33,245 bases of DNA, taken from assembly GCA_003599485.1 (NCBI GenBank), contig QZKM01000034.1, positions 1 through 33,245 on the forward strand, written 5' to 3'. Below the pieces are notes generated by a model that saw only the letters and a program-made list of their open reading frames with translations, did no database searches and was not told where the DNA came from. The number at the start of each line of letters is the position of its first letter. Position 1 is the first letter of the stretch. Origin of the DNA: Gammaproteobacteria bacterium (GTDB taxonomy: Bacteria > Pseudomonadota > Gammaproteobacteria > SURF-13). A program made the position numbers and the translations under genes. Positions 5,083 through 16,822 of this stretch are shown piece after piece.

Positions 5083-6273
5083 TTGGACGTGCAACTTTCC
5101 AGGCGCGTAGCGCTCATCAAGCCGTCCGCCACGCTCGCCGTCACGGCGCGCGCCGCCGCGCTCAAGACGGCGGGCAAGGACATCATCGGCCTCGGCGCGG
5201 GCGAGCCGGATTTCGACACCCCCGATCATATCAAGCAGGCGGCGATCAAGGCGATACAGGCCGGCTTTACCAAATACACCGCGGTGGACGGCACGCCGGG
5301 GCTGAAACAGGCCGTCGCGGCCAAATTGCGGCGCGAGAACGGTCTCGATTATACCCCGGATCAGGTGCTGGTGTCGGCGGGCGGCAAGCACAGCTTTTAT
5401 AACCTGGCGCAGGCGCTGCTCAATCCGGGCGATGAGGTCATCATCCCCGCGCCCTACTGGGTGTCGTACCCGGATATGGTGCTGCTGGCCGAGGCCAGGA
5501 CGGTGATTGTGCACGCGGGCATCGAACAGCAGTTCAAGATTACCCCGGTGCAACTCGAAGCCGCCATCACGCCCAAAACGCGCCTGGTGGTGCTGAACAG
5601 CCCCTCCAACCCGACCGGCGCGACCTACACCCGCGCCGAGCTTGCCGCGCTGGGTGAAGTGCTGCGCCGCCATCCGCACGCGTTAATTGCCAGCGATGAT
5701 ATTTACGAACACATCCTGTTAAGCGGCGAACCGTTCAGCAACATACTCAACGCCTGCCCGGAATTGTATGACCGCACGGTGGTCATCAACGGCGTATCCA
5801 AGAGTTATTCGATGACCGGCTGGCGCATCGGCTATGCGGCGGGGCCGAAGCCGCTGATTGAGGCGATGAAGAACATCCAGTCGCAAAGCACCTCCAATCC
5901 GGCCTCGATTTCACAGGCCGCGGCGCAGGCGGCGCTGGAAGGCGATCAGTCGTTTATGAAGGATTGGCTGCGCCAGTTCAAGGAGCGCCACGCGTTTGTA
6001 GTGAAGGAATTGAACCGCGTCAAAGGCGTGCAATGCCTGCCGTCGCCGGGCGCGTTTTATTCTTTCCCCAGGGTGCAAGACGCGATCGAAACACTGGGTG
6101 TGAAGGACGACGTGGCGCTGGCCGAATATCTGCTGAACGAAACCGGCGTGGCGCTGGTGCCGGGCTCGGCCTTCGGCGCGCCGGGCTACCTGCGGCTGTC
6201 GTTCGCCACCAGCATGGATAATTTGCGCGAGGCGCTCGCACGCATGCAAAAGTTGCTCGGCACGACAAGCTAA
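5083..6273 (+). CDS. Aspartate aminotransferase, class I/II fold
   Basis: A PLP-dependent fold-type I aminotransferase of 396 aa that most likely interconverts aspartate and 2-oxoglutarate with oxaloacetate and glutamate; some relatives also use prephenate. It has the N-terminal GLGAGEPDFDTPDHI motif, NSPSNPTGA, the PLP-lysine box GVSKSYSMTGWRIGY, and a C-terminal arginine in YLRLSFATS that binds the substrate carboxylate. The start is a TTG at 5083 with GAGGGA at 5069-5074 spaced eight nt away; an in-frame GTG at 5089 is the alternative. Its end overlaps the convergent glyoxylate aminotransferase gene by four bases. The exact substrate cannot be fixed from sequence alone. Confidence 0.93.
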   Translation: MDVQLSRRVALIKPSATLAVTARAAALKTAGKDIIGLGAGEPDFDTPDHIKQAAIKAIQAGFTKYTAVDGTPGLKQAVAAKLRRENGLDYTPDQVLVSAGGKHSFYNLAQALLNPGDEVIIPAPYWVSYPDMVLLAEARTVIVHAGIEQQFKITPVQLEAAITPKTRLVVLNSPSNPTGATYTRAELAALGEVLRRHPHALIASDDIYEHILLSGEPFSNILNACPELYDRTVVINGVSKSYSMTGWRIGYAAGPKPLIEAMKNIQSQSTSNPASISQAAAQAALEGDQSFMKDWLRQFKERHAFVVKELNRVKGVQCLPSPGAFYSFPRVQDAIETLGVKDDVALAEYLLNETGVALVPGSAFGAPGYLRLSFATSMDNLREALARMQKLLGTTS

Positions 6274-7445
6274 GACAACCGCTTGCGCGCCGTGGCGACG
6301 GCTACTCCGCGTTTGATAGGCGCATTGAGGCGCGCCAGCGTTTCCTCCAGCGCGCTCAGGCAGAACAGCACATTGGTGGGGTTGCTGGCGTAGCCCATCA
6401 GGCCGATGCGCCAGATTTTTCCCGCCATGACGCCTAACCCCGCGCCGATTTCCAGGTTGTAGTCGTTGAGCAGCGCGGCGCGCACCGCGGCGTCATCCAC
6501 GCCGTCGGGGATATAAATTGAATTCAACTGCGGCAGGCGCTCGTTTTCCTTGACCACGAAGCGCAAGCCCATCGCCTCGATGCCCGCCTTCAGCGCCTGA
6601 TGATTGCGTTCGTGGCGCGCCCAGGCGTTTTCCAGGCCTTCTTCTTGCAAAATGACCAGCGCCTCGTGCAGGCCGTACAGGGCGTTGATCGGCGCGGTGT
6701 GATGATAGGCGCGCTTTCCGCTGCCCCAGTAACCCATCACCAGATTCAAATCCAGGAACCAGCTTTGCACTTTGGTCTTGCGCGCCTTGATTTTTTCCAC
6801 CGCGCGTTCGCTGAAGCTCACCGGGGATAATCCGGGGGTGCAGGACAGGCACTTTTGCGAACCGGAGTAGATGGCATCCACGTTCCACTCGTCCACTTTG
6901 AGCTTTGATCCGCCGAGCGAGGTGACGGCGTCCACGATGACGAGCGCGCCGTGACGGTGCGCGATTTCAACCAGGGTTTTTACGTCGGATTGCGCGCCGG
7001 TGGAGGTTTCCGCGTGTACGAAGGCGGCAAGTTTGGCGTCAGGATTTTTCTTGAACGCCTGTTCCAGCTTGTTTGCGTCCACCGCGGACCCCCAGGCGTC
7101 CTCTACCATGACGGCGCTTGCGCCGCAGCGCTCCACGTTTTCCTTCATGCGGCCTCCGAACACGCCGTTCTGGCACACGATCACCTTGTCGCCGGGCTCG
7201 ACCAGGTTCACGAAACACATCTCCATGCCCGCCGAACCGGGTGCGGAGACGGGCAGGGTGAGCGGGTTTTTGGTCTGGAAGGCGTATTGCAACAGCGCCT
7301 TCATCTCGTCCATCATGGAAACAAACACCGGATCAAGATGACCGATGGTGGGGCGCGACATCGCCTCCAGTATGCGCGGGTTGACATCGGACGGGCCGGG
7401 GCCCATCAAGGTGCGGCGTGGAGGGTGGAAGGATGTTATCGTCAT
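6270..7445 (-). CDS. Alanine/serine-glyoxylate aminotransferase
   Basis: A class V PLP aminotransferase of 391 aa, of the family that converts glyoxylate to glycine with alanine or serine as amino donor. Motifs include RTLMGPGPSDVNPR at the N-terminus, the IVDAVTSLGG cofactor aspartate, and the PLP-lysine box YSGSQKCLSCTPG, which strongly resembles AGXT-type enzymes. It is the last gene of a leftward operon after glcD, glcE, glcF and a DUF3147 gene, so the glyoxylate made by glycolate oxidase is the likely substrate. No clear Shine-Dalgarno precedes the ATG. The LMGPGPS motif requires this upstream start rather than the internal methionine. Donor specificity is not decided by the sequence. 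Confidence 0.93.
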   Translation of the reverse strand: MTITSFHPPRRTLMGPGPSDVNPRILEAMSRPTIGHLDPVFVSMMDEMKALLQYAFQTKNPLTLPVSAPGSAGMEMCFVNLVEPGDKVIVCQNGVFGGRMKENVERCGASAVMVEDAWGSAVDANKLEQAFKKNPDAKLAAFVHAETSTGAQSDVKTLVEIAHRHGALVIVDAVTSLGGSKLKVDEWNVDAIYSGSQKCLSCTPGLSPVSFSERAVEKIKARKTKVQSWFLDLNLVMGYWGSGKRAYHHTAPINALYGLHEALVILQEEGLENAWARHERNHQALKAGIEAMGLRFVVKENERLPQLNSIYIPDGVDDAAVRAALLNDYNLEIGAGLGVMAGKIWRIGLMGYASNPTNVLFCLSALEETLARLNAPIKRGVAVATARKRLS

Positions 7446-10096: not shown

Positions 10097-11580
10097 CAAA
10101 AACGCTCCAGACCGGGAAACGGCAGCTTGCCGTGGTGCACGTGCATGGCGCCGAATTCCGCGCAGCGTTGCAGGGTGGGCACGGCCTTGCCGGGGTTGAG
10201 CAGCCCCTTGGGGTCGAAGGCGTATTTGATTTCGTGAAACTGGGCGAGTTCCGCGGATGCAAACTGGACGCACATCTGGTTGAGCTTTTCGACGCCCACG
10301 CCGTGTTCGCCGGTGATCGTTCCGCCGACTTCAAGGCACAGTTCCAGGATTTTCGCGCCGAACTCTTCAGCTTGTTTCAGTTCGCCCGGTTGATTGGCGT
10401 CGTAAAGGATCAACGGATGCAGATTGCCGTCACCGGCGTGAAACACGTTGGCGACGCGCAGCCTGTAGTGTTGCGACAGTCCGGCGATGCGCGTCAGCAC
10501 CTCCGGCAAACGGTTGCGCGGAATGGTGCCGTCCATGCAATAGTAATCGGGGGCCAGGCGTCCCACGGCGGGAAAGGCGGATTTGCGCCCCGCCCACAGC
10601 CTGAGGCGTTCGGTCTCATCGCGCGCGGTATGCGCTTCGTAAGCGCCGTTAGCCAGCAGCAGGTCGCGCACCCGCATGATGAGTTCGGAGACTTCTTCGT
10701 TGGCTCCGTCCAGTTCGCACAGCAGGATGGCGGCGGCGTCCACCGGGTAACCGGCGCGGGTGTAGTTCTCCGCCGCGCGCAGGGCGAGGTTATCCATCAT
10801 CTCCAGCCCCGCCGGAATGATGCCCGCGCCGAGGATGGCGCCCACCGCCATACCGGCCTGAGCGACGTCGTGAAACGCCGCGAGCACCAGTTGCGCGCGC
10901 TCCGGTTTGGGGAGGAGCTTCACCGTCACCTCCAGAATCACGCCCAGCAATCCTTCGGAGCCGTTCAGGAGGGCGAGCAGATCGTAGCCGGGGGTATCCA
11001 GCGTGTTGCCGCCCAGCTCCAGCAATTCGCCGTTCATGGTGAGCAGCTTGAGTCCCAGCACGTTGTGTACGGTCAGACCGTACTTCAGGCAATGCACGCC
11101 GCCGGAATTTTCGGCCACGTTACCGCCGATGGTGCAGACGATTTGCGAAGAGGGATCGGGCGCGTAGTACAGGCCGTAGGGTGCGGCCGCCTCGGAAATG
11201 GCGAGATTACGCACGCCGCACTCCACGCGCGCGGTGCGATTGTCCGGGTCTAGTTCGAGGATGCGGGTGAACTTGGCAAGCGACAGCAGCACGCCGTGGC
11301 TGAGCGGCAGCGCGCCGCCCGACAGCCCCGTGCCCGCGCCGCGCGCCACCACGGGAACGTGCATCTGGGCGCACAGGCGCAGAATTTCCTGTACTTGATG
11401 GGCGTTATCCGGCAGGCACACCACACCGGGCGGATTGCGGTAGGCGGTCAGCCCGTCGCATTCATAGGGCCGCGACTCTTCGGCGCCGGCCAGCACCGCT
11501 TCCGGCGGCAGAATACGGTGCAGCGCCGAGACCTGCGCGTTGAGATCCGGGGAAAGTGCAGCAGTGGCGGATTTCGGCAT
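10096..11580 (-). CDS. glcD: Glycolate oxidase catalytic subunit
   Basis: GlcD oxidises glycolate to glyoxylate using FAD. The 494-aa protein has the PCMH FAD domain (VARGAGTGLSGGALP, then TIGGNVAENSGGVHCLKYG) and the C-terminal FAD-linked oxidase domain with NVFHAGDGNLHP and the GTITGEHGVGVEK flavin/substrate motif. I chose the ATG at 11578-11580, which begins MPKSATAAL and gives the family length (E. coli 499). In-frame starts further upstream overlap the divergent surE promoter region. It is the first gene of the glcD-glcE-glcF-DUF3147-aminotransferase operon. No glcC-type regulator is next to it. Confidence 0.97.
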   Translation of the reverse strand: MPKSATAALSPDLNAQVSALHRILPPEAVLAGAEESRPYECDGLTAYRNPPGVVCLPDNAHQVQEILRLCAQMHVPVVARGAGTGLSGGALPLSHGVLLSLAKFTRILELDPDNRTARVECGVRNLAISEAAAPYGLYYAPDPSSQIVCTIGGNVAENSGGVHCLKYGLTVHNVLGLKLLTMNGELLELGGNTLDTPGYDLLALLNGSEGLLGVILEVTVKLLPKPERAQLVLAAFHDVAQAGMAVGAILGAGIIPAGLEMMDNLALRAAENYTRAGYPVDAAAILLCELDGANEEVSELIMRVRDLLLANGAYEAHTARDETERLRLWAGRKSAFPAVGRLAPDYYCMDGTIPRNRLPEVLTRIAGLSQHYRLRVANVFHAGDGNLHPLILYDANQPGELKQAEEFGAKILELCLEVGGTITGEHGVGVEKLNQMCVQFASAELAQFHEIKYAFDPKGLLNPGKAVPTLQRCAEFGAMHVHHGKLPFPGLERF

Positions 11581-11612
11581 GACGCAAAGTATAGCAGTGC
11601 GCCGTACTTGCA

Positions 11613-11618
11613 TATAAT
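11613..11618 (+). promoter_or_regulatory. -10 box (TATAAT) ahead of surE
   Basis: A consensus TATAAT lies 17 nt upstream of the surE ATG in the 55-bp gap between divergent glcD and surE. No convincing -35 hexamer is seen at 16-18 bp. Transcription would begin only about ten nt before the ATG, leaving little room for a Shine-Dalgarno, and none is visible. On the minus strand TATACT at 11588-11593 could serve glcD. Confidence 0.45.
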
Positions 11619-11635
11619 ATGCGTACACACGGCCT

Positions 11636-12421
11636 ATGAAAATTCTCCTCAGCAATGATGACGGCTACCAGGCGCCCGGTATCGTGTGCCTGGCGCAGGC
11701 GCTGCGCGAGGTGGCGGACGTGGTGGTGGTGGCGCCGGAGCGCGACCGCAGCGGCGCCAGCAACTCTCTTACCCTGGATGCGCCGTTGCGCGCGGTGCGC
11801 GTCAGCGAGCACCTGATCCGCGTGGACGGCACGCCCACCGATTGCGTGCACCTCGCCATCACCGGCCTGCTGGAGCACGAGCCTGACATGGTGATCGCCG
11901 GCATCAACGGGGGCGCGAACCTGGGCGATGACGTGCTTTACTCCGGCACCGTGGCGGCGGCGATGGAGGGTCGTTTTCTGGGCCTGCCCGCGCTGGCCGT
12001 GTCGCTCATCGGCCCGGCCTGCGCGCACTACGAAACCGCGGCGCGCGTCACGCGCCAGCTCATCACGCGCCTGCTTAGCGACCCCTTGCCCGCGGACACC
12101 ATCCTGAACGTCAACGTGCCTGACCTGCCGTGGGAACAGATCGCGGGCTTCGAGGCCACGCGCCTCGGCCACCGGCACAAGGCCGAGCCGGTGGTACGCG
12201 GCACGGATCCGCGCGGGCGCACCATCTACTGGGTCGGGCCGCCGGGGGCGGAGCAGGACGCAGGTCCCGGCACGGATTTTTACGCGGTGCGGCGCAACCA
12301 TGTTTCCGTCACGCCGATACAGGTGGATCTCACGCGCTACAGCGCGCTTGACCAGGTGGCGCACTGGGTGCAGGGTTTGTCTTTCGCCGCTATGCCGGAA
12401 AAAAAGGCGCGCGGCGCATGA
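11636..12421 (+). CDS. surE: 5'/3'-nucleotidase SurE
   Basis: A metal-dependent nucleoside monophosphate phosphatase of 261 aa. The N-terminal [16 protein letters not shown] contains the two metal-binding aspartates. The family-specific [36 protein letters not shown] and NVNVP segments follow. The protein is slightly longer than the usual 250 aa through a C-terminal tail. It heads the surE-pcm-yqaA-nlpD cluster, a gammaproteobacterial stationary-phase and envelope locus, and its stop overlaps the pcm start (ATGA). Confidence 0.97.
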
Positions 12422-13071: not shown

Positions 13072-13646
13072 TGCGCATCTTTTCCGCGCTTTATGAACGG
13101 GTGATGCGCTGGTCGCGTCACCGCCACGCCCCTTGGTATCTCGCGTTCTTAAGCTTTACCGAATCCTCGTTTTTCCCCGTCCCGCCGGATGTGATGCTCG
13201 CGCCCATGGCGCTGGCGCGGCCGGAGCGCGCCTGGCGCCTGGCCGCGCTCACCACCGCCGCATCGGTGCTCGGCGGCTTGCTTGGCTATCTCATCGGTCA
13301 CTACGCGTTTACCTTCGTCGAGCCGTGGATACAGCGCATGGATTACGTGGAGGCTTATCAACACGCGCAGGACTGGTTCAGGGAGTGGGGCTTCTGGGCC
13401 ATGTTCATCGCCGCCTTCACACCTATTCCCTACAAGATGTTCACCATCGCCGCGGGTGTGATCGCCATGCCATTGCTGCCGTTCGTGATCGCCTCCTGCA
13501 TCGGGCGCGGCGCGCGGTTTTTTCTGGTCGCGGGCGTGATGCAGTGGGGCGGGGCGAGCATGGAGCAGGCGCTGCGCCGCTACATAGACCGTCTCGGCTG
13601 GGTCATGGTGCTCGCGGCGCTCATCGCCTATTTTGCGTTTCGCTGA
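13071..13646 (+). CDS. YqaA-like VTT-domain inner-membrane protein
   Basis: A 191-aa polytopic membrane protein of the DedA/VTT (SNARE-associated) superfamily, YqaA type. Family features are SFTESSFFPVPPDVMLAPM near residues 27-45, the GLLGYLIGHYAF helix, and the FIAAFTPIPYKMFTIAAG re-entrant region. Family members are thought to act in lipid or membrane homeostasis; the exact activity is not established for YqaA. It sits between pcm and nlpD, joined by TGATG overlaps on both sides, so the four proteins are translated in coupled fashion. Confidence 0.92.
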   Translation: MRIFSALYERVMRWSRHRHAPWYLAFLSFTESSFFPVPPDVMLAPMALARPERAWRLAALTTAASVLGGLLGYLIGHYAFTFVEPWIQRMDYVEAYQHAQDWFREWGFWAMFIAAFTPIPYKMFTIAAGVIAMPLLPFVIASCIGRGARFFLVAGVMQWGGASMEQALRRYIDRLGWVMVLAALIAYFAFR

Positions 13647-14395
13647 TGATACGGGTGTGGGCCGCCGCGTTCATCGTGCTGATACTCTCCGGCTGCGCCG
13701 GTTACGAAGGTTACGCCCCGGTGAGCGGCATGCGCGGCTCAGCCGGTCAAGCCGATTATTACACGGTAAAATCAGGCGACACCTTGTACTCTATCGCATG
13801 GGACTACGGCCAGGACTACAAGGAAGTCGCGCAGTGGAACCGCATTGCGCCGCCTTACCGCATTTACGCCGGACAGCGGTTGCGCCTTACGCCTCCTGCG
13901 GATATTTCCGTGGCGGCCAAATCCTCCACCCCGCCGCCCGCCGCCTCGACCGGGAGCACCGCCACAAATAAAAAAGCAACCCCGGCGGAGACCGCGCCAG
14001 GCGCCCAGGAAACCGGCGCTTCACAGGTGATCAGCTGGCGCTGGCCCGTGCAAGGCAAACTAGTGGGAAACTTCGGCGCGGGCAACAAGGGCATCAACAT
14101 CGCGGGCGAAGAAGGGCAGGCCATTCAGGCCGCCGCACCCGGGCGCGTGGTCTACAGCGGCAGCGGCCTGGTGGGCCTGGGCCAACTGCTCATCATCAAA
14201 CACGACAACACCTTCTTAAGCGCCTACGCGCACAATAAAACGCTGCTGGTGAAGGAGGGCGATCAAGTCAGCGCCGGACAACGCATCGCCGAAATGGGCC
14301 GCACCGGCGCCGAGCGCGTCATGCTGCACTTTCAAATCCGCAAAGACGGCAAGCCGGTAAACCCGTTGCAGTATTTGCCGGAGACGAAGCTTTAA
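13646..14395 (+). CDS. nlpD: Lipoprotein NlpD: LysM plus degenerate LytM domain
   Basis: NlpD activates the periplasmic amidase AmiC during cell separation. The 249-aa protein begins with a lipoprotein signal ending in LSGC, so the acylated residue is Cys17. A LysM peptidoglycan-binding domain follows (about 37-80, YYTVKSGDTLYSIA), then a linker rich in Pro, Ala and Thr, and a C-terminal M23/LytM domain. The first metal motif, HxGxDI in active enzymes, reads NKGINI here. The active-site ligands are therefore replaced, as in regulatory NlpD/EnvC proteins, which are activators rather than hydrolases. The ATG shares a base with the yqaA stop. Unusually, rpoS does not follow. Confidence 0.95.
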   Translation: MIRVWAAAFIVLILSGCAGYEGYAPVSGMRGSAGQADYYTVKSGDTLYSIAWDYGQDYKEVAQWNRIAPPYRIYAGQRLRLTPPADISVAAKSSTPPPAASTGSTATNKKATPAETAPGAQETGASQVISWRWPVQGKLVGNFGAGNKGINIAGEEGQAIQAAAPGRVVYSGSGLVGLGQLLIIKHDNTFLSAYAHNKTLLVKEGDQVSAGQRIAEMGRTGAERVMLHFQIRKDGKPVNPLQYLPETKL

Positions 14396-14399
14396 GCAG

Positions 14400-14434
14400 A
14401 CAGCCCGGATGCAGCATGGCGGAATCCGCACAAC
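14400..14434. repeat. Possible degenerate REP-like fragment
   Basis: The stretch CAGCCCGGATGCAGC followed by GGCGGAATCCG resembles half of a dispersed repeat of the type GTAGCCCGGAT...AATCCGGG that I recall from many gammaproteobacterial genomes. Only one imperfect copy is present in this window, so the assignment rests on recall and is weak. Confidence 0.3.
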
Positions 14435-14443
14435 AGTGCAGGG

Positions 14444-14606
14444 TTAAGGAAGCTCTGATTTATTTAGAGCTTCCGTGCGATGCATGGAGGAGGCATCGCC
14501 ATTTTTCAAATACACAAGTATTTGAAAAATGAAGAAAAGAAAAATCACATTGTTGCTTTTCGTGCTATGAGAATTCCAGGGATGGAATTATTCAGAGCCT
14601 CCTTAA
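14444..14606. mobile_element. 155-bp MITE with TTAA target-site duplication
   Basis: The element runs from 14448 to 14602 and is flanked on both sides by TTAA (14444-14447 and 14603-14606), consistent with a target-site duplication. The left end GGAAGCTCTGATTTATT and the inverted right end GGAGGCTCTGAATAATT agree at 14 of 17 positions. No transposase is encoded. Inside are adjacent perfect hairpins: 14448-14474 (9-bp arms), 14477-14499 (7-bp arms) and 14500-14531 (14-bp arms, ACAA loop). A small AATTCC/GGAATT stem lies near the right end. GGAAG-type ends with a YTAR duplication recall IS5-family elements, which would be the source of the mobilising transposase. That family assignment is inference. 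Confidence 0.75.
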
Positions 14607-14660
14607 GCGGTACAGGGTTGGGTACGGTCCAGACACATGGGTAACATTCGTAACTTCCAT
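14592..14660 (-). pseudogene. Cassette ORF truncated by the MITE
   Basis: An ATG at 14658-14660 is preceded by GGAGAG at 14666-14671, five nt away, a good ribosome binding site. It opens a reading frame of 22 codons that runs into the MITE and stops at the TGA in its terminal repeat. The frame starts 54 nt after the proposed recombination point of attC site 2, where a cassette gene normally begins. I read it as the start of a third cassette gene disrupted by the MITE. The encoded fragment is not recognisable. Beyond the MITE no related coding sequence is evident before nlpD. Confidence 0.5.
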
Positions 14661-14708
14661 CTCTTCTCTCCTTTATTCTCCGTTTCACCCCTCACTATGG
14701 CGATTGCA

Positions 14709-14795
14709 CGCTAACGTTTCGCGTAACTGGCGGAAGAAAGCAGAGCGAGGAACGAGCGGCGCTTTTTGCTGTCCGGGTTGATGGGCTTGTTATGT
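14709..14795 (-). other. attC recombination site 2 (87 bp)
   Basis: On the minus strand the site opens with ACATAAC (R'' box, 14789-14795) and closes with GTTAGCG (R' box, 14709-14715). Between them are imperfectly complementary halves: ATCAACCCGGA on one side and TCCGCCAGTT on the other. The R'' box is the exact complement of the GTTATGT at 15416-15422 that opens the same cassette. That complementarity is the diagnostic relation between the two ends of an integron cassette. The site begins two nt after the stop of the cassette gene. Confidence 0.72.
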
Positions 14796-14796
14796 T

Positions 14797-15396
14797 TCAA
14801 AATCTTACATCTCCTGTATACAGGAGATCTATCAATTCTCCATCTCCGATTTTTACTTCCTCCCGCTCTCCTTCCTCTCCGGAAACATAGGTAGTTCTGA
14901 TGGAGTTAATTTGAGCTACCACTGCTACGCCGTTCTTGAACCCAAAGTCTTTGAATAGGTCGGGATGCTCTTTGAGAAAGGAGTCAACCCTATCTTTATT
15001 GGAAAGTAGCGACAACTGCAATTCGGTTCCGAACATATAGTCGAAACTACTGAAAAGGCTTCTTTCCACCAAAACTACATACTGCGATTGATCGCGGGTG
15101 GCGATGTCCTTTATGGAGCCGATAAAGAGGATTGGCCTTTGTTGCAACCAAAGCCGCTCTAATTCTACGGTCAGGATTGGCTCGAACCTGAATCTTTCGC
15201 CCTTGCTTAAATTTGTTTCCCAGCCCGTTACTGAGTTTGTGCGCGAGGCCATTTGGGATACGGCGGCCTTGGTGGCATGTTCAACTCTTTCAACTTCGGC
15301 GCGCTCTGCCTCTCTTTTGGCTCTTTTCTCCATATAGGAATTGGAAAAATAGCCGACAGCTGCAACTGCAATAATTATCCATACGATTCTTTTCAT
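14797..15396 (-). CDS. Cassette-borne membrane-anchored protein, unknown function
   Basis: A 199-aa protein that I do not recognise. It starts MKRIVWIIIAVAAVGYF, an N-terminal transmembrane anchor (about 3-19). A highly charged, probably coiled segment rich in Glu, Lys and Arg follows (about 20-45), then a soluble domain of about 150 residues with alternating beta-like and charged stretches. One anchor with no signal-peptidase motif suggests a periplasmic domain tethered to the inner membrane. The gene fills nearly all of a 707-bp unit (14715-15421) bounded by attC-like sites, starting 25 nt after one recombination point and ending at the next attC. Its lower GC than the flanking housekeeping genes supports recent acquisition. 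Confidence 0.75.
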   Translation of the reverse strand: MKRIVWIIIAVAAVGYFSNSYMEKRAKREAERAEVERVEHATKAAVSQMASRTNSVTGWETNLSKGERFRFEPILTVELERLWLQQRPILFIGSIKDIATRDQSQYVVLVERSLFSSFDYMFGTELQLSLLSNKDRVDSFLKEHPDLFKDFGFKNGVAVVAQINSIRTTYVSGEEGEREEVKIGDGELIDLLYTGDVRF

Positions 15397-15415
15397 GTGG
15401 TGTCAGCGCCTTGAA

Positions 15416-15539
15416 ACATAACGGGACGCGAGTTGAGGCGCACCCCGAGTGATTAAGGATAGAATGATTCTATCCGTAATCACGAGCGGGCGACAGCCGC
15501 GACCGGAGGGAGCGGTGACGGCTCGAACGAGGGTTGGGC
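15416..15539 (-). other. attC recombination site 1 (124 bp)
   Basis: On the minus strand it opens with GCCCAAC (15533-15539), an exact match to the R'' consensus RYYYAAC, followed by CCTCGTTCGAGCCG. It ends with CAACTCGCG and GTTATGT (15416-15422), the R' box. The tip of the fold is a 35-nt inverted repeat at 15449-15483 with 17-nt arms (16 of 17 paired) and a single-base loop. The flanking halves pair imperfectly, with unpaired bases, as attC hairpins do. Confidence 0.72.
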
Positions 15540-15558
15540 GGCGGGCAGCGCCGCTCAA
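15422..15558 (-). mobile_element. ORF-less minimal gene cassette (137 bp)
   Basis: A GTTGAGC at 15553-15559 matches the R' consensus GTTRRRY exactly and nearly complements the GCCCAAC R'' box of attC site 1 (6 of 7). The span between the two recombination points therefore behaves as a complete cassette consisting almost entirely of its attC. The first part forms a separate hairpin, GTTGAGCGGCG with CGCCGCCCAAC at 15533-15559 (10 of 11 paired). Nothing resembling an attC or an integrase gene lies upstream, so the cassette may abut a former attI or a secondary GTT target. Confidence 0.5.
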
Positions 15559-15655
15559 CTAGAAATAGGCCGTCTAAATGACGTAATTTAATTACATCAA
15601 TACAGGAGATTTTAGATTAAATGAATTATATAACTATATGTTTATTATTATATTT
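15559..15655. other. AT-rich gap between cassettes and hicB remnant
   Basis: This stretch contains no supported gene. It is strongly AT-rich compared with the rest of the window and includes an imperfect palindrome, TGACGTAATT with AATTACATCA around 15579-15599. No integrase or attI feature is recognisable. Confidence 0.5.
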
Positions 15656-15824
15656 TTAACAATTCTTGTGTCCGAATATAGCTAAACCCGCTGGAAATTT
15701 TGCCTTTCCCGCCATGTCAGCAGGCTTGATGATGGCGTCCTCGCTGGAGGGGCTCTGCACGAGCCTTCAGACTTTCGATATGGAGTTGAAGCGCCTCTGT
15801 AATATCTGAACGGTTTCTTCCCAT
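15656..15824 (-). pseudogene. Degenerate HicB-type antitoxin remnant
   Basis: A reading frame from 15824 to 15717 contains SDITEALQLHIESLKARAEP, which resembles the helix after the HicB core (EALxLHIEGLxxxGEP). A one-base frame change near 15750 then continues as PSSEDAIIKPADMAGKAKF and stops at 15656-15658. HicB proteins typically have EPSSL(D/E) at exactly this junction, so the two frames look like one broken gene. Upstream, a third frame reads YAIFLHKDG, which could be the eroded N-terminus. The central strands and any hicA toxin gene are missing. The identification rests on short motifs. Confidence 0.5.
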
Positions 15825-15830
15825 CTTTAT

Positions 15831-15872
15831 GCAAAAAGATCGCGTACGCCGGAGCAGAGTATGCTCCGGCGT
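15831..15872 (-). terminator. Putative terminator hairpin
   Basis: A perfect 11-bp stem with a 5-nt loop (arms ACGCCGGAGCA at 15846-15856 and its complement at 15862-15872) lies 24 nt downstream of the 112-aa gene. Leftward it is followed, after seven bases, by CTTTTT. The geometry is near that of an intrinsic terminator, though the T-run is short and offset. Confidence 0.45.
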
Positions 15873-15896
15873 CGCGGCCGGGGAGGCGGAGTTAAT

Positions 15897-16235
15897 TTAT
15901 ACGACCCTGGTTTCGTGCGGGGTGGTATAACTTTCTTTTAGCGGTGGCGTGTAGGCGCTGGTGCGCTGCGTGACGTATTCTTCAATCTGTTGACTGGTAA
16001 GATCGAGCAGCGCGGGGTTGCCCGCCCAGTCGTCCCAGACGTGAGACATGATTTCGTCGTAGGTCTCCGGGCGATAGTGGGCTTCATCGCCCATGACGAG
16101 CACGTTGTAGATATGCTCGTCGAGTGCGCGATAGATGCGGTCGAGCTGGTCCGCGGCCCGTTGCTCGTGACCCTTCCACATATTCATTTTGCCGACGCAG
16201 TGTACGTCGCAGAGATATTTGCTGAGTGACATCAT
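15897..16235 (-). CDS. Orphan conserved-looking protein, 112 aa, unknown function
   Basis: I do not recognise this protein. I chose the ATG at 16233-16235 because GAGGAGGG precedes it by seven nt; the longer in-frame start would translate through a 10-bp leader hairpin. The protein is acidic and soluble, rich in Asp, Glu, Tyr, Trp and His, and begins MMSLSKYLCDVHCVGKMNMWKGHEQ. It has no signal or membrane segment. Two Cys and several His in the first 25 residues could bind a metal, but no named motif is complete. It stands alone between the cassette island and the Mth938-domain gene. Codon use and good translation signals suggest a functional gene. Confidence 0.7.
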   Translation of the reverse strand: MMSLSKYLCDVHCVGKMNMWKGHEQRAADQLDRIYRALDEHIYNVLVMGDEAHYRPETYDEIMSHVWDDWAGNPALLDLTSQQIEEYVTQRTSAYTPPLKESYTTPHETRVV

Positions 16236-16262
16236 GATCAGGCCCTCCTCATACGGCTTGGG

Positions 16263-16291
16263 GATGGGCCTGACCGGCTGGCAGGCCCATC
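16263..16291 (-). promoter_or_regulatory. Leader stem-loop upstream of the orphan gene
   Basis: A perfect 10-bp inverted repeat, GATGGGCCTG and CAGGCCCATC, with a 9-nt loop lies 28 nt upstream of the start codon, just ahead of the Shine-Dalgarno at 16243-16250. It could act as an mRNA leader structure or a protein operator. No T-run follows. Confidence 0.5.
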
Positions 16292-16417
16292 GTGGGGATT
16301 TACCAATCCTTTGGACCGGAAATGTGTGCAACACTTTTCAGCCTACGCCTGATTACCGGGGGATGCAAGGGGCACTGAGAATGAATTTAGACCCGGTTTA
16401 AAGCGGCATTTTTAAGG

Positions 16418-16822
16418 TTATATCATGAGCAGCGCGGCAACGACGCGGCGTCCGTCGGCCATGAGAAGATTGTAAGTGCGGCAGGCGGCGTCGGTGCTCA
16501 TGACCTCGATGCCGATGCCTTGCCGGATGAGCGGGGCGAGGGTGCTTGCGGAGGGAAAGATTAGCTGCGCGCCCGACCCGAACAATACGACTTCGGGATT
16601 CAATTCGATCAACTGTTCAAAGTGCCCGGCGCGCAGTTCGGCGCAGCTTTGCGGAGGCCAGCCGCGCAGCAGTTGTCCGGGCGAGATAATCAGGCTTTGG
16701 GTAAGAATTTCCTGTCCTGCAGAGGCCGTCCGGTCCGCCGCGGGCAGCTTGACGGTGATCCGGCCCGGTGCGTAGGAGAGGATGCTGTAGCGCCCGGCGC
16801 CGTCTTCCAGATGGAATTTCAT
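16418..16822 (-). CDS. Mth938-like domain protein (DUF498)
   Basis: A 134-aa soluble protein of the Mth938/Xcc1710-like family (formerly DUF498), with characteristic segments SLIISPGQLLRGWPP, PEVVLFGSGAQLIFP and GIGIEVMSTDAACRTYNLL. Eukaryotic relatives (NDUFAF3, AAMDC) include a respiratory complex I assembly factor; the bacterial function is not established. It is complete for the family and starts at the ATG at 16820-16822. It is transcribed away from alaC and appears monocistronic. Confidence 0.88.
   Translation of the reverse strand: MKFHLEDGAGRYSILSYAPGRITVKLPAADRTASAGQEILTQSLIISPGQLLRGWPPQSCAELRAGHFEQLIELNPEVVLFGSGAQLIFPSASTLAPLIRQGIGIEVMSTDAACRTYNLLMADGRRVVAALLMI

Follow-up and report, generated by a model that had tools for sequence, protein, structure and literature searches.

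Integrons are normally described as a single intI-attI platform with its cassette array. Two phenomena close to the one reported here are already known. Clusters of attC sites lacking an integrase (CALINs) have been described in Xanthomonas at fixed loci away from intI (PMC12444791), and insertion of cassettes at attG and secondary sites is established (Loot 2024, via PMC12444791 and PMC12901181; Recchia and Hall 1995, via PMC10127599). The attG sites are characterized in PMC12901181, citing Loot et al. 2024, as strongly divergent from classical att sites. The Delta-attI gene cassettes of mobile integrons (PMC12901181) also place parts of attI away from the intI-attI junction, but in those an attI fragment takes the place of attC at a cassette's 3' end within an integron, whereas in the loci considered here the attI-like sequence lies upstream of the cassettes at chromosomal loci. 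In the literature we searched, we found no description of attI-like sites that are scattered behind host genes and used repeatedly for different cassettes, and it is these sites that appear to be new.

The window, by which we mean the whole stretch of 33,245 nucleotides analysed, lies on contig C22 of a 1.69-Mb genome (G000), which together with five relatives makes up a family of six genomes (f1, G000-G005), all of them fragmented assemblies. Comparison by tblastn shows that the order surE-pcm-yqaA-nlpD-DUF498-alaT-hom is kept in the four relatives that could be compared (G002-G005), and because in these nlpD is directly followed by DUF498, with the segment of the window absent rather than carried as an undivided ancestral sequence, the extra stretch of about 2 kb is an insertion in the window genome (Table 1). 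The original prediction, which was made from the sequence alone, had read this region as integron-type cassettes lacking an integrase and sitting where rpoS normally sits. By gammaproteobacterial synteny the placement holds, as outgroups G006 and G009 have nlpD on the same contig as an rpoS whose product scores above the cut-off, with no more than about 0.4 kb between the two. It does not carry over to the family, in which none of the six genomes has an rpoS match above the cut-off, and since rpoS is missing family-wide its displacement by the cassettes is ruled out and nothing was replaced. Five of the six genomes retain the neighboring nlpD, the exception being G001, in whose 76%-complete assembly it was not found.

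Table 1. Features of the window between nlpD and the DUF498 gene, with positions in the window; a slash within a sequence marks the crossover point
Feature	Position	Strand	Basis or remark
nlpD, left flank	13646..14395	+	Peptidase_M23 and LysM
Extra stretch of about 2 kb (cassettes, dispersed repeat, unknown ORF)	14396..16417		Not present in the nlpD-DUF498 interval of four relatives
MITE-like dispersed repeat (163 bp)	14443..14607		Ends compared, TTAAGGAA..CTCTGA and TCAGAG..TTCCTTAA; many copies in family genomes
attC site 1 (attC1), attC of the 199-aa cassette	14709..14795	-	41.5 bits; structurally decayed
Gene cassette, 707 bp	14716..15422	-	Complementary ends GTTATGT and ACATAAC
Cassette ORF, 199 aa, hydrophobic N-terminus, no family	14797..15396	-	ORF call and profile searches
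attC site 2 (attC2), with 35-nt hairpin in variable part	15416..15539	-	13.7 bits and array identity
ORF-less mini-cassette, 137 bp, attI-proximal	15423..15559	-	Two GTT crossovers as boundaries
attI-like site	15555..15599	-	Crossover before GTT at 15559-15557, TATTTCTA/GTTGAGC
145-aa ORF, no known family, upstream of attI-like site, same direction	15897..16334	-	ORF call; the beginning of its region is conserved in G001:C10
DUF498 protein, right flank	16418..16822	-	PF04430, E 1.5e-26

The integrase model TIGR02249 (cut-off 265 bits) found no match anywhere in contig C22, so the locus is free of intI as had been proposed and as the CALIN definition has it. The genome-wide search for intI and further attC sites that was suggested along with the original prediction changes the picture, because it reveals an intact integrase and a long cassette array elsewhere in the same genome, as well as an attC on contig C2. 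The full-length intI (C44:4823-5764; 490.8 bits, E 9e-148) adjoins mnmG, and behind it come attI and about a dozen cassettes, which run to the end of the contig. As intI also lies beside mnmG in G001, G003 and G004, and G002 retains a scrap of it there, the mnmG-linked integron is the ancestral integron of the family; in G005 the mnmG-linked attI and array are present without intI. Among the main-array cassettes at L006 (G000:C44), the one at 5946-6557 codes for an AbiU2-like HEPN protein and the one at 11535-12392 for an Mrr-type restriction endonuclease domain, both of them possible phage defences. In this genome the end of C44, the start of C33 and the end of C31 all break in near-identical copies of attC2, and C33 therefore probably continues the C44 array. 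Such breaks are also what an assembly chimera would exploit, with the attC2 repeat as the bridge between a main-array fragment and the nlpD contig. We regard this as very improbable, given that both flanks (nlpD on one side and DUF498-alaT on the other) are orthologous neighbors, that the attC2 of the window has private differences and its attI-like site is not that of C44, and that the same architecture occurs on C2 free of the attC2 repeat.

Both of the predicted attC-like sites, directly oriented on the minus strand and about 0.6 kb apart, were recovered. The covariance model that we built, R1, was trained on 16 attCs from the main array (C44, C33) and two relatives with the window excluded, and it places site 1 exactly at the position given in Table 1 (E 3.7e-9 in the window, 1.9e-7 genome-wide). 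Site 2 belongs to a long, divergent attC type and its R1 score (E 0.13 in the window) would not pass by itself, but two stretches of the intI-linked array match it closely, C44:14002-14104 with 97% identity over 103 bp and C44:13232-13327 with 96% over 96 bp. Judged by their sequence, the two sites are attCs; of the two or more nearby attCs that define a CALIN, site 1 qualifies by model score, whereas site 2 would do so by homology and not by score. Across the genome R1 matches eleven sites on C44, two on C33, one on C2 and site 1 of the window, plus one at chance level; an Rfam search returned no attC family match and only chance hits to miRNA models. A cruder scan by regular expressions, boxes and palindromes did not separate the true sites from shuffled DNA, which is why the covariance model was used instead, and which in isolation would suit a reading of the locus as chance inverted repeats beside an ordinary orphan ORF. 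Given the model score and the 96-97% identity of site 2 to attCs of the intI-linked array, that reading is already refuted and we give it virtually no weight.

The structural side of the original prediction fared less evenly. The complementary ends of the 707-bp cassette were confirmed as exact complements within a 12-nt inverted repeat, and an ORF lies between crossover points with complementary R''/R' boxes at both ends, as expected of an integron cassette. The proposed hairpin is not borne out for site 1, for which the bottom strand gives a z of +1.5 with unpaired R boxes and hence no attC fold; its sister in C44, 81% identical, folds as an attC bottom strand with a z of -7.5. The bottom strand of attC2 reaches a z of -4.5, yet its R boxes are unpaired in the MFE structure, and the same absence of R-box pairing is seen for some attCs of the main array, the stems of which are nevertheless strong. 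The hairpin with paired R boxes on which mobility depends was thus seen in neither attC of the window cassettes. Because attC1 no longer folds, the present mobility of the window cassette is doubtful; this copy would be old and may no longer release its gene.

The locus most likely represents a small integrase-less platform, composed of an attI-like site, an ORF-less mini-cassette and a cassette bearing an orphan gene. Searches of 349 other genomes of the class and of 72,556 plasmids gave no homologue of the protein encoded by that gene, and neither this protein nor the 145-aa ORF product has a significant match in Pfam, NCBIfam or PHROGs. Cassette proteins commonly lack a known family or homologue. 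A fuller version of the mini-cassette is found at C44:13105-13321 and behind htpG in the relative G001 (contig C128). Since the attI-proximal attC2 is almost identical to the copies in the array and the hairpin of the distal attC is lost, the proximal unit would be the newest and the distal unit the oldest and most decayed. A 19-nt inverted repeat (17/19) links window positions 14801-14819, at the end of the cassette ORF, with 15600-15618, just outside the attI-like site.

On its nucleotide sequence, the window array begins at an attI-like site that the original prediction had overlooked, and because this site flanks the array, the cassette feature extends to about 15599 rather than ending at 15559. 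The sequence leading into the first cassette unit is GATGTAATTAAATTACGTCATTTAGACGGCCTATTTCTA/GTTGAGC in the window, as against GATGTAAAATTATACATCATATGGGCTGTCTATTTCTA/GTTGGAC at the C44 attI. The two share an identical 13-nt core and resemble each other over about 45 bp, a stretch that takes in a palindrome upstream of the crossover; in the window this palindrome is imperfect and reads GATGTAAT-TAA-ATTACGTC. The core TATTTCTAGTTRRRY has exactly three copies in the 1.69 Mb of the genome, namely the C44 attI, the window and C2:52925-52939, and the reversed control gave none. Against the C2 site the window site is 83% identical over 47 bp (E 1.1e-5 genome-wide), and under a profile of intI-adjacent attIs it scores 15.9 bits (E 0.025), which is marginal on the profile alone. 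The site is therefore like the cognate attI in sequence but not adjacent to intI, of which neither a copy nor a remnant was found within 1.5 kb upstream. The classification as a CALIN or secondary-site insertion is supported, with no intI in the contig and the cassette attC called by the model, and it is the insertion point that has to be amended, from any GTT to an attI-like site in a genome that holds an intact integrase elsewhere. Like CALINs as defined for IntegronFinder, the locus is chromosomal and has two direct sites read as attCs, no nearby intI and an intI elsewhere in the genome, but it differs in starting at a recognisable attI-like site and in the weak covariance score of site 2. 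With the sedentary chromosomal integron on C44 it has the attI type and the attC types in common, but it lacks intI and consists of two cassette units only.

The window site is not alone. We trained a sequence-only attI profile on five intI-adjacent attIs and ran it on the six family genomes, where it returned 12 further matches at E < 0.01 against about 0.06 expected, not counting the sites of the training set or the one linked to mnmG in G005; several weaker matches include the window and the acsA sites. Many of the family sites lack intI and mostly lie just behind core genes; most follow a gene of the same direction, and in most a small ORF begins within about 50 bp. The names TSUP, acsA, glnD, htpG, ilvA and nrdB used here are our own presumptive assignments, made by eye from the protein sequences and not from a database. 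An attC follows the site at C2, in the window, at G001:C152, G001:C128 and G005:C38, and weakly at G002:C20. C2 repeats the architecture of the window, with an attI-like site just behind a TSUP-family gene, then a 127-aa ORF, then an attC of 51.4 bits, and no intI. At several ectopic sites, those at acsA included, no attC is detectable behind the first ORF, and such ORFs are therefore cassettes by position only. Among 55 genomes of the class outside the family, the profile gave four matches at E < 0.01, of which two are attIs with intI next to them, a third has a degraded intI as its neighbor, and the last lies in G031. The G031 site, at L286 (G031:C10) 12255-12299 in another family, lies behind an nrdB-like gene with no full-length intI (E 0.003). 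The site at G026:C60 was rejected as an ectopic site outside the family, since the degraded intI upstream makes it an ordinary attI. A further integrase-less cassette locus at L101 (G000:C6), about 53850-54900, holds a HigB/HigA-like pair and an acetyltransferase-like ORF with an attC2-type site between them. At L103 (G001:C128), from 5053 onward, cassettes lie behind htpG with an ORF-less attC2 cassette first, and a later stretch is duplicated in tandem, possibly as an assembly artefact.

These parallel sites bear on the possibility that the window is the remnant of a second complete integron, the intI of which once lay beside the window attI and was later deleted. The likeness of the site to a real attI fits such a history, as does the unexplained AT-rich sequence of about 300 bp between the site and the 145-aa ORF, and decay is seen elsewhere in the intI scrap of G002, in the intI-less mnmG-linked attI of G005 and at G001:C152, where about 160 bp are in common with G001's own intI-attI region. 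We nonetheless consider it improbable, for no trace of intI lies within the 1.5 kb upstream of the window site, and at the parallel acsA, glnD, htpG and TSUP sites the gap to the end of the upstream gene is 3-46 bp, too short to hold intI. Save for the scrap at G001:C152, no intI remnants were found upstream of the ectopic sites.

The same survey weighs on whether ordinary insertion at attG or secondary sites would suffice, with IntI using nearly any GTT and the likeness to attI limited to the part that IntI contacts. The established cases of such insertion and the fact that core similarity is strongest beside the crossover speak in its favor, and the window likewise has cassettes at a GTT outside an integron, most likely inserted by IntI in trans. 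The sites described here, however, resemble copies of the resident attI, and they are found again at orthologous positions where the cassettes differ. The best of them reach E 1e-6 against whole genomes in unrelated flanks, and the attI match of about 45 bp, palindrome included, stands against the strong divergence from classical att that PMC12901181 ascribes to attG. We therefore hold this explanation to be unlikely, though worth serious consideration.

Recurrence is seen behind acsA, where a site is common to G001, G003 and G004, which represent three genera. The left flanks are 79-86% identical over 150 bp up to the crossover and then drop at once to 45-51% (null mean 47%), and the ORFs that follow differ among the three genomes. 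Site-specific insertion at a conserved target should produce just such a pattern, which is judged here from position and breakpoint, with no attC detected. An 87-bp match downstream of the acsA cassettes was considered as the resuming right flank and set aside as repeat-like sequence. At the end of glnD, G001 has an attI-like site followed by an ORF, while the site in G005 appears to be empty; the end of htpG differs in all six genomes.

Taken together, we infer, with a probability of roughly 0.78, that the window cassettes were inserted in trans by the resident IntI encoded on C44, at an ectopic attI-like site that is one of a dispersed set. The attI-like sites would most likely be descendants of one attI-type sequence, carried to the 3' side of host genes, from where cassettes could be transcribed from the upstream gene. 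As for how these units spread, IntI recombines conservatively and would make no copies of them, and they have only about 45 bp in common, set in unrelated flanks. More tentatively, at a little under even odds, a single IntI may serve many attI units of about 45 bp, palindrome included, at the 3' ends of core genes, which would then act as conserved satellite platforms with cassettes exchanged in trans and read from the upstream gene. Gene capture in this family seems not to be tied to one locus. If attI-type sites are indeed dispersed and reused at fixed loci, cassette capture would be spread over the chromosome, cassette genes would be controlled by many different host promoters, and comparison of orthologous sites, such as that of acsA in three genera, would make the origin of CALINs testable.
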